A DNA stretch of 64,000 bases, from the NCBI RefSeq assembly GCF_001971785.1, contig NZ_CP019389.1, positions 321,001 to 385,000 on the forward strand. The letters are read 5' to 3'. Below the pieces are notes generated by a model. The model was not told where the DNA came from. It worked only from the letters and a program-made list of their open reading frames with translations, and ran no database searches. Below, piece after piece: positions 3,535 to 44,114 of this stretch. The DNA comes from Seonamhaeicola sp. S2-3 (GTDB taxonomy: Bacteria; Bacteroidota; Bacteroidia; Flavobacteriales; Flavobacteriaceae). The translations under genes and the position numbers were made by a program. Position 1 is the stretch's first letter; each line of letters starts with the position of its first letter.

Positions 3535-3566
3535 AAAAAAACGGATGCACAAGCATCCGTTTTTTG
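3535..3566. terminator. Intrinsic terminator after the 249-aa gene
   Basis: Perfect 8-bp stem ACGGATGC / GCATCCGT with loop ACAA (3541-3560), preceded by ten A and followed by five T. It works in either direction and closes the plus-strand gene ending at 3512. Confidence 0.9.
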
Positions 3567-3589: not shown

Positions 3590-3920
3590 TGTCAGACTGA
3601 GCTATGTCAGACTGAGCCTGTCGAAGTCTTGTCGAAGCCCTGTCGAAGCCCTGTCGAAGCCCTACCAAAGCCCAAATGTCAGACTGAGCCTGTCGAAGTC
3701 TTGCCGAAGCCCAAATGTCAGACTGAGCTTGTCGAAGTCTTGCCGAAGCCTTGTCGAAGCCTTGTCGAAGCCCTACCAAAGCCCTACCAAAGCCCCATCA
3801 AAGCCCCAACTGTCAGACTGAGCCTTTAGGGCTGAGCTTGTCGAAGCCCTGTCGAAACCCCATCAAAGTCCAACTGTCAGGCTGAGCCTGTCGAAGCCCC
3901 CTCGAAGCCCTGCCGAAGTC
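3590..3920. repeat. Composite repeat cluster: TGTCAGACTGAGCCTGTCGAAG heads with 11-bp CCCTGTCGAAG tails
   Basis: Several 'head' copies (TGTCAGACTGAG followed by CYTGTCGAAG) are each followed by a variable run of 11-bp units of the form CCCTGTCGAAG, with variants CCCTACCAAAG and CCCCATCAAAG. Apparent ORFs across this block are only translations of the 11-mer in rotating frames. The cluster ends 15 bp from the stop codon of the GIY-YIG gene. Related copies lie at 4269-4308 (inverted), 4362-4690, and a decayed one at 44089-44114. Confidence 0.9.
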
Positions 3921-3934
3921 CCCCCCTCTTTTAT

Positions 3935-4246
3935 CTACTCCCCTTCCCCCTTACCATATTCCGTATAATTTTTAGAATATTGCACCAACCGATTCCAATC
4001 GCCATCAATCAATGCTTGTTTTTTTCTTCTACTCCATCCTTTAATTTTTTTCTCAAACATAATAGCTTGAGAAGGGTCTGTAAACATTTCATACCAAACC
4101 AACGCTACAGGGCGTCTTTTATAAGTATAAGCATTTTTATCGGTTCCCGCATTATGTTCATATAATCTCCGTTCTAGATTATTTGTAAACCCAGTATAAA
4201 ATGAATCATCTTTACATTTAACGATGTAAACAAAAAAACTTTTCAT
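3935..4246 (-). CDS. GIY-YIG family nuclease (YhbQ/UPF0213-like)
   Basis: A 103-residue single-domain protein. VYI (residues 6-8) and YTG (18-20) form the GIY-YIG core. RRLYEHN near 26-32 carries the catalytic Arg, and the Glu of MFEKKIKG near 64 is the metal ligand, followed by the basic WSRRKK. The family cleaves DNA with one divalent metal; stand-alone members of this size are common in Bacteroidota, but their substrates are mostly unknown. Both flanks are repeats within 15-25 bp: the 3' end adjoins the 3590-3920 cluster and the 5' end adjoins an inverted copy at 4269-4308. This makes the gene the core of a compact gene-plus-repeats unit inside a polysaccharide locus. A mobile or repeat-maintaining role is inference. 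Confidence 0.9.
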   Translation of the reverse strand: MKSFFVYIVKCKDDSFYTGFTNNLERRLYEHNAGTDKNAYTYKRRPVALVWYEMFTDPSQAIMFEKKIKGWSRRKKQALIDGDWNRLVQYSKNYTEYGKGEGE

Positions 4247-4268
4247 TATTTTTTACGTTTCTTGATAA

Positions 4269-4308
4269 GCTTCGTCAAGCTCAGCTTCGTCAAGCTCAGC
4301 TTGACACA
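4269..4308. repeat. Inverted copy of the GTCGAAG-type repeat
   Basis: Two copies of CTTCGTCAAGCTCAG followed by CTTGACA. Read on the minus strand this is TGTCAAGCTGAGCTTGACGAAG, matching the head unit of the 3590-3920 cluster. It therefore lies in opposite orientation to the copies on the other side of the GIY-YIG gene, 23 bp from its start codon. Confidence 0.8.
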
Positions 4309-4361
4309 CTTAACTAACCAATTATTTATTTTATTGTTTCATTTCCCTCACCAAATTCACC

Positions 4362-4690
4362 ATATCAGACTGAGTCTTTAGGACTGAGCCTTTAGGACTG
4401 AGCTATGTCAAACTGAGCCTGTCGAAGCCTTGCCAAAGTCCCTCTGTCAGACTGAGCTTGTCGAAGTCCTGTCGAAGCCCTGTCAAAGCCCTGTCGAAAC
4501 CCCATCAAAGTCCCAACTGTCAGGCTGAGCCTGTCGAAGCCCTATCGAAGCCCAAATGTCAGACTGAGCTATGTCAGGCTGAGCCTGTCGAAGCCCTGCC
4601 GAAGCCCTGCCGAAGCCCTGCCGAAGCCCTGTCGAAACCCCATCAAAGTCCAACTGTCAGGCTGAGCCTGTCGAAGCCCTATCGAAGTCC
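4362..4690. repeat. Second composite 11-bp repeat cluster
   Basis: The same head and tail units as 3590-3920, in the same orientation: five or more heads (TGTCAGACTGAGCTTGTCG and variants such as ACTGAGCCTTTAGG) with runs of CCCTGCCGAAG/CCCTGTCGAAG, including three identical CCCTGCCGAAG units near 4593-4625. About 70 bp of unremarkable sequence separate it from the methyltransferase stop codon at 4770. Confidence 0.9.
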
Positions 4691-13163: not shown

Positions 13164-13171
13164 CACTAATA

Positions 13172-13213
13172 AACTTTGAACTTATAGCTTTAAACTTGGA
13201 ACTTGGAACTTAA
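13172..13213. repeat. Six-copy heptamer tract, AACTTGG family
   Basis: AACTTTG, AACTTAT, AGCTTTA, AACTTGG, AACTTGG, AACTTAA in register. It ends at the base before the ATG of the methyltransferase at 13214 and starts 9 bp after the ABC-F stop. Sequence unrelated to CACNNNT heptamers but of identical period. Confidence 0.85.
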
Positions 13214-44088: not shown

Positions 44089-44114
44089 TGTCATACTGAC
44101 CCTGTCAGTATTCT
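44089..44114. repeat. Decayed solitary copy of the GTCAGACTGAGCCTGTCGAAG repeat
   Basis: TTGTCATACTGACCCTGTCAG aligns with the head unit of the 3590-3920 cluster and contains the perfect hairpin ATACTGAC-cct-GTCAGTAT (44093-44111). Confidence 0.4.

Follow-up and report, generated by a model that had tools for sequence, protein, structure and literature searches.

The window examined here, a 64,000-nucleotide stretch of the genome of Seonamhaeicola sp. S2-3, contains a gene for a small stand-alone GIY-YIG nuclease that is closely accompanied by short repeats on both sides (Table 1). The initial annotation had read this gene from the sequence alone, and its Pfam match bore this out. By sequence, the closest solved structures to the window nuclease were those of the UPF0213 proteins 1ywl and 1zg2, and its predicted structure (mean pLDDT 90) matched 1zg2/1ywl first and then Slx1. 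Among the 30 homologues compared, residues Y7, Y17, R27, H31 and E65, presumably the usual catalytic positions of GIY-YIG enzymes, were invariant or almost so. The protein ends in VQYSKNYTEYGKGEGE, which is a tail of the type I class described below. Three GIY-YIG genes could be identified in the whole genome; because the other two lie within ORFs of 612 aa (the size of UvrC) and 456 aa, the window gene is the sole small GIY-YIG gene of this organism. A perfect 13-bp hairpin (3536-3565), flanked by A/T runs and terminator-like in appearance, is located between a 249-aa gene and the repeat cluster.

Table 1. Features of the nuclease locus, and the site in the window that corresponds to cassette-bearing sites of relatives
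Feature	Position	Strand	Details
Repeat cluster, 3' side of nuclease gene	3590-3925	+	Heads at 3605, 3677, 3716 and 3875, each with 11-bp tails
Stand-alone GIY-YIG nuclease, UPF0213-like, 103 aa	3935-4246	-	Pfam PF01541, E=3.5e-21
Inverted repeat copy, partly duplicated	4269-4306	-	23 bp from nuclease start codon
Second repeat cluster	4363-4690	+	Heads at 4406, 4445, 4518, 4572 and 4655, with tails
Cassette-free counterpart of the G151/G150 site	13164-13213		50-bp gap between ABC-F ATPase gene and methyltransferase gene

The repeat unit is composed of a 22-bp head, TGTCAGRCTGAGCYTGTCGAAG, whose 3' part has been duplicated to give 11-bp tails, and TRF confirmed these tails as tandem arrays of the form (CCTGTCGAAGC)n. 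Nine heads, exact or with one mismatch, were found in the window, all on the forward strand, and degenerate heads at 3811/3825 within the first cluster also carried 11-bp tails. This cluster stops about 15 bp past the stop codon of the nuclease gene. The inverted copy on the other side differs from the head at 2 of 22 positions (4285-4306), and the arrangement in the window is unit(+), gene, unit(-). Thus, the repeats of opposite orientation, the further cluster and the fixed head with expandable tails described in the initial annotation could all be recovered. An isolated decayed copy that it had placed at 44089 was rejected: the stretch 44089-44110 (+) has 6 mismatches out of 22, and chance alone would give 0.42 such matches over the remainder of the window.

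In the 3.75-Mb genome, the 15-bp core of the unit was present in 22 copies at five places, with 10 of the 22 at the nuclease locus and units at four other places away from it; a reversed control pattern of the core had no match in the whole genome. One of the distant clusters (G000:C1:3566052-3566480; L029:1553-2095) lies just past cas2 and cas1 genes (Pfam Cas2 and Cas1), at a position that a CRISPR array might be expected to occupy. Except for the CAGGCTGAGCCTG form, none of the type I and type II units examined folded better than shuffled sequences; the long type III form did fold. A strong hairpin as a common feature of the repeats was ruled out, type I units having a weak and variable tendency to form hairpins, and hairpin recognition is therefore unsupported for some variants.

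The occurrence of repeats beside related genes was analyzed at 80 named homologue loci of Bacteroidota, Ignavibacteriota, Chlorobiota, Nitrospirota and Nitrospinota. In a motif-free test, which scored any 12-mer recurring three or more times no farther than 400 bp from the gene and used controls 2-4 kb away on the same contigs, such 12-mers were detected in 39 of 80 homologue flanks versus 6 of 570 control windows; enrichment beside homologues was what the initial annotation had proposed as a check of its idea, and it was evident. When three motif classes were searched instead, 430 matches occurred in 126 kb near 108 homologues versus 16 in 416 kb farther away, an approximately 90-fold excess for which the motif-free test is the cleaner measure because the classes were picked from near-gene sequence. 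At least one motif match was present at 95 of these 108 loci. Chance neighbourhood or taxonomic background as the source of the association was ruled out by the offset controls and by the within-genome paralogues described below.

The positions of the units were also rather uniform. Of the homologue loci having units on both sides, 53 of 73 showed the same unit(+), gene, unit(-) arrangement as the window, and the nearest unit was found at a median of 55 bp upstream of the start and 14 bp past the stop. Such closeness to both gene ends could be expected if the repeats were only terminators or mRNA stability elements of the nuclease gene, and small hairpins are indeed possible for some units. 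However, units also occur within coding genes and far from the nuclease, type I hairpins are weak, and the A/T-flanked hairpin at 3536-3565 is a separate element, all of which makes a purely regulatory function very unlikely.

The combination of a small GIY-YIG gene and adjoining repeats was observed in Bacteroidota, Ignavibacteriota, Nitrospirota and Nitrospinota, and different repeats adjoin the genes of alphaproteobacterial and cyanobacterial plasmid homologues. Distant homologues on plasmids of Methylobacterium, Planktothrix and Rhizobium (L220, L222 and L223) lie beside CCTCATCCTGAG, CTCAGAATGACA / TGTCATCCTGAA and CCGTCATCCCAG, and some of these repeats contain GTCA. Several other features of the homologue loci were noted. 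The last codons of the nuclease gene are often themselves part of a repeat (L098, L129, L132 and L116 among many, with endings such as FDSAQPDN, PSTGSG and SSTSSD). At L155, L177, L167 and L178, GIY-YIG ORFs without a stop continue into the next gene, reaching 436 aa in L155, and such run-on ORFs sometimes pass through a repeat-derived peptide, for example GLDSARPD; the downstream part of the L155 ORF had no Pfam match at 0.001. One locus (G013:C15:33061-36339; L046) has two nuclease copies of the same score about 1 kb apart, embedded in an extended array where inverted type III units recur about every 180 bp.

Comparison of the proteins with their neighbouring repeats revealed three classes. 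The type I repeat (TCGACARGCTCA) pairs with C-terminal tails like SKNY, the type II repeat (TCGACTNCGCTC) with SECRNATH tails bearing a two-residue insertion, and the type III repeat (TCTCGATAC...CTCGAACTGACA), which is longer, with AKKKF tails. Tail and repeat type agreed at 108 of the 110 loci, whereas no more than 60 agreed in any of 20000 shuffles; the two mismatched loci were a truncated ORF (L086) and a 1:1 tie (L098). Alignment positions 93 and 95 were the most informative and separated the three types. Two changes suffice to place the types on the protein tree (shuffled mean 47), a result that is no proof by itself because related proteins share types. A strong control on the match is provided by paralogues within single genomes: in G013, G120, G132, G138, G148 and G154, two nucleases of different type occur in the same genome, each beside its own repeat type, and the same holds for Winogradskyella algicola, a Mesonia and Epilithonimonas mollis. 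Since the tail of the enzyme predicts the adjoining repeat across about a hundred relatives, the enzyme and the repeats are a matched pair rather than chance neighbours.

We also examined the abundance of repeats at the genome level, using one genome for each of 149 Flavobacteriaceae genera, calling a homologue at E<=1e-24 and counting type I and type II sites. At least three such sites were present in 33 of 42 genomes with a homologue versus 21 of 107 without (Fisher p 3e-11, which serves only as a guide because the 149 genomes are related), and the mean number of sites was 11.4 versus 1.9, about a six-fold difference. In agreement with the initial annotation, the repeats were not equally abundant where the nuclease was lacking. 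Four genomes with a close homologue had no exact type I or type II core, and at least one of them (G133) is of type III. On the other hand, repeats could be found in genomes without any detectable homologue (9 sites in G015, 5 in G080, and 3 each in G070 and G086); maintenance of the repeats is therefore not strictly nuclease-dependent, and the relation is an association. These genomes, together with the four places away from the gene in the window genome, are what would be predicted if the repeats were independent mobile sequences, MITE- or RPE-like, that favour intergenic regions and have the nuclease as an incidental neighbour. This passive hitchhiking is hardly credible given the roughly 90-fold local enrichment and the type match at 108 of 110 loci, which includes same-genome paralogues and holds for all three repeat types. 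Local enrichment, genome-level abundance and the prediction of repeat type from nuclease type all favour the specific nuclease-repeat partnership that the initial annotation had suggested.

Gene and repeats were found to come and go together. One conserved intergenic site, bounded by an ABC-F gene and a methyltransferase gene, holds different nuclease types in two congeneric species: both nuclease and repeats are of type II in G151 and of type III in G150. No nuclease was present there in the window genome, G149, G152, G153 or G154; the gap does not exceed 57 bp in the window genome, G149 and G152, and unrelated sequence fills it in G153 and G154. At a second site, G154 carries a type I cassette in its minimal form, TGTCAGTCTGAGCCTGTCGAAG-gene-CTTCGACAAGCTCAGTGTGACA, and the syntenic positions of G150 and G153 lack it. 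Hence, at two sites within the genus the cassette is missing from the same site in relatives, with exact boundaries that are unreadable because the intergenic spacers have diverged. The window protein shares 79% identity with Flavobacterium proteins, its own group, versus 67% with that of a congener, which suggests that the window nuclease was acquired by transfer.

Empty sites, to which the initial annotation had drawn attention, were thus found for whole gene-plus-repeat cassettes, and they also exist for single units. A single 24-bp insertion (CTCTTCGACAAGCTCAGGGCAGGA) is located in frame at the start of hsdM and has a clean empty counterpart in G029. Likewise, four 21-bp units (84 bp) are in frame in a nucleotide-sugar dehydrogenase gene and are missing from 15 relatives. 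Insertion is the simpler reading, because every relative examined is without the units. No unambiguous target-site duplication was seen, the insertion at hsdM being ambiguous in this respect. The hsdM unit (G000:C1:631083-631097; L027:2077-2098) lies in a gene that reads as a type I methylase (HsdM), whose ORF is split downstream of the unit into 198 and 323 aa and forms one frame of about 545 aa in relatives. The dehydrogenase units (G000:C1:3357835-3357912; L028:1829-1913) are in a gene of the UDP-glucose/GDP-mannose dehydrogenase family.

The initial annotation had compared this layout with REP elements and their RAYT transposases. REP/REPIN and RAYT (TnpA_REP) indeed resemble the present system in that short repeats, often in inverted pairs, flank a single-copy enzyme gene, that enzyme and repeat are type-matched, and that both are missing in some relatives. 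However, the window enzyme is of the GIY-YIG and not the Y1/HUH type, and no match to PF01797 could be found in the whole genome by a search that was positive in 5 of 14 control genomes. With no Y1 transposase in the genome, RAYT was ruled out as the mover of the repeats, and the likeness is therefore one of layout, as seen in the inverted flanking units, and not of family. A RAYT-like part might still be played by the nuclease itself, which would then cause both the units and the gene cassette to be copied to new places. Such self-spreading would fit cassettes with inverted-unit ends, such as the minimal one of G154 that is missing in G150 and G153, the lone-unit insertion with its clean empty site, the higher number of repeats where the nuclease is present and the genome without a Y1 transposase. 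A spread of the repeats by the nuclease itself is thus a plausible hypothesis. Nevertheless, strand-transfer chemistry is not known for GIY-YIG domains, and we know of no joining step by which such a domain alone could move DNA. No unambiguous target-site duplication was seen, divergence of the spacers at cassette sites prevents the boundaries from being fixed, and copy numbers are low (22 sites in the genome). Taken together, we consider a self-spreading element a tentative and somewhat unlikely explanation.

A closer parallel in enzyme type may be found in Neisseria. The Ssn family reportedly consists of site-specific single-stranded GIY-YIG nucleases with NTS repeats in Neisseria meningitidis. 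In Neisseria, Ssn nucleases, like thousands of homologues, reportedly cleave repeats of their own in single-stranded DNA and have an influence on transformation. The two systems share a single-domain GIY-YIG enzyme of about 100 aa, cognate repeats both near the gene and at other genomic places, and homologues that differ in specificity, each for its own sequence. They differ in that the Bacteroidota repeats have another sequence, are composite with 11-bp tails and form three tail/repeat classes, and in the gain, loss and replacement of cassettes between congeners seen here; cutting of single-stranded DNA is something we infer for the present enzyme. Our literature search found nothing linking GIY-YIG enzymes with such repeats, and the filing with the Ssn kind is a lead based on two of four defining features, the small stand-alone domain and the cognate repeats. 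On this analogy, the repeats might serve the host by marking DNA that is cut single-stranded in natural transformation or repair, the pair tuning DNA exchange and the build-up of repeats being a by-product. Besides the parallel with Ssn/NTS, the recurrence of the layout across phyla is consistent with this possibility, as is the replacement of whole cassettes at conserved positions, which fits homologous recombination of the flanks. High turnover and absence in the congener G149 speak against an essential host role, and we regard a host-serving function as a serious candidate with less than an even chance.

Two further systems show partial similarity. Rickettsia palindromic elements are short units of about 100-150 bp that lie in frame inside protein-coding genes. 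They resemble the present units in their in-frame insertion into coding genes, whereas the unit here is 21-24 bp and has a partner nuclease. GIY-YIG homing endonucleases of the I-TevI type are also enzymes tied to the gain and loss of their own gene at conserved sites. In contrast to these, the window nuclease is without a separate DNA-binding domain, several sites are used rather than one homing site, and the repeats, as candidate recognition sites, are intact on both sides of the gene.

On the basis of the association, the tail-repeat match, the presence and absence of cassettes and the unit insertions, all of which were established by sequence comparison, we consider it quite probable that the locus encodes a site-specific nuclease with its own cognate recognition repeats, forming cassettes that are gained, lost and replaced. 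Recognition of the 22-bp unit TGTCA-NNC-TGAGC-Y-TGTCGAAG would involve both the catalytic domain and the C-terminal tail of the small GIY-YIG endonuclease, probably with the DNA in single-stranded form, and the enzyme would cleave the repeat unit (TGTCAGACTGAGCYTGTCGAAG). A preference for single strands is a property of the Ssn family. Inverted units act as the ends that bracket the gene and define a cassette of about 0.4 to 1.1 kb that is turned over between close relatives. Single units also reach new sites and then expand by tandem duplication into the 11-bp tails, and exchange could take place when DNA cut by the nuclease recombines or is taken up by transformation. What leads from cutting to spreading could be the recombination of cut DNA in the course of transformation, copying linked to repair or the action of an additional partner.

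The tail-repeat code and the cassette turnover are the parts that we do not know to have been described before. A stronger claim, which we put forward as rather doubtful, is that a GIY-YIG nuclease and a 22-bp repeat would be among the smallest self-spreading cassettes known (about 400 bp, with the gene between two inverted units), the nuclease driving entry of units and cassettes into new sites and tail residues around 93 and 95 choosing the repeat. For small GIY-YIG nucleases, the pairing of tail residues with repeat type provides a directly readable specificity code, of which about a hundred natural pairs are at hand, and it offers a candidate explanation for the common short intergenic and in-frame repeats of Bacteroidota that have no transposase.
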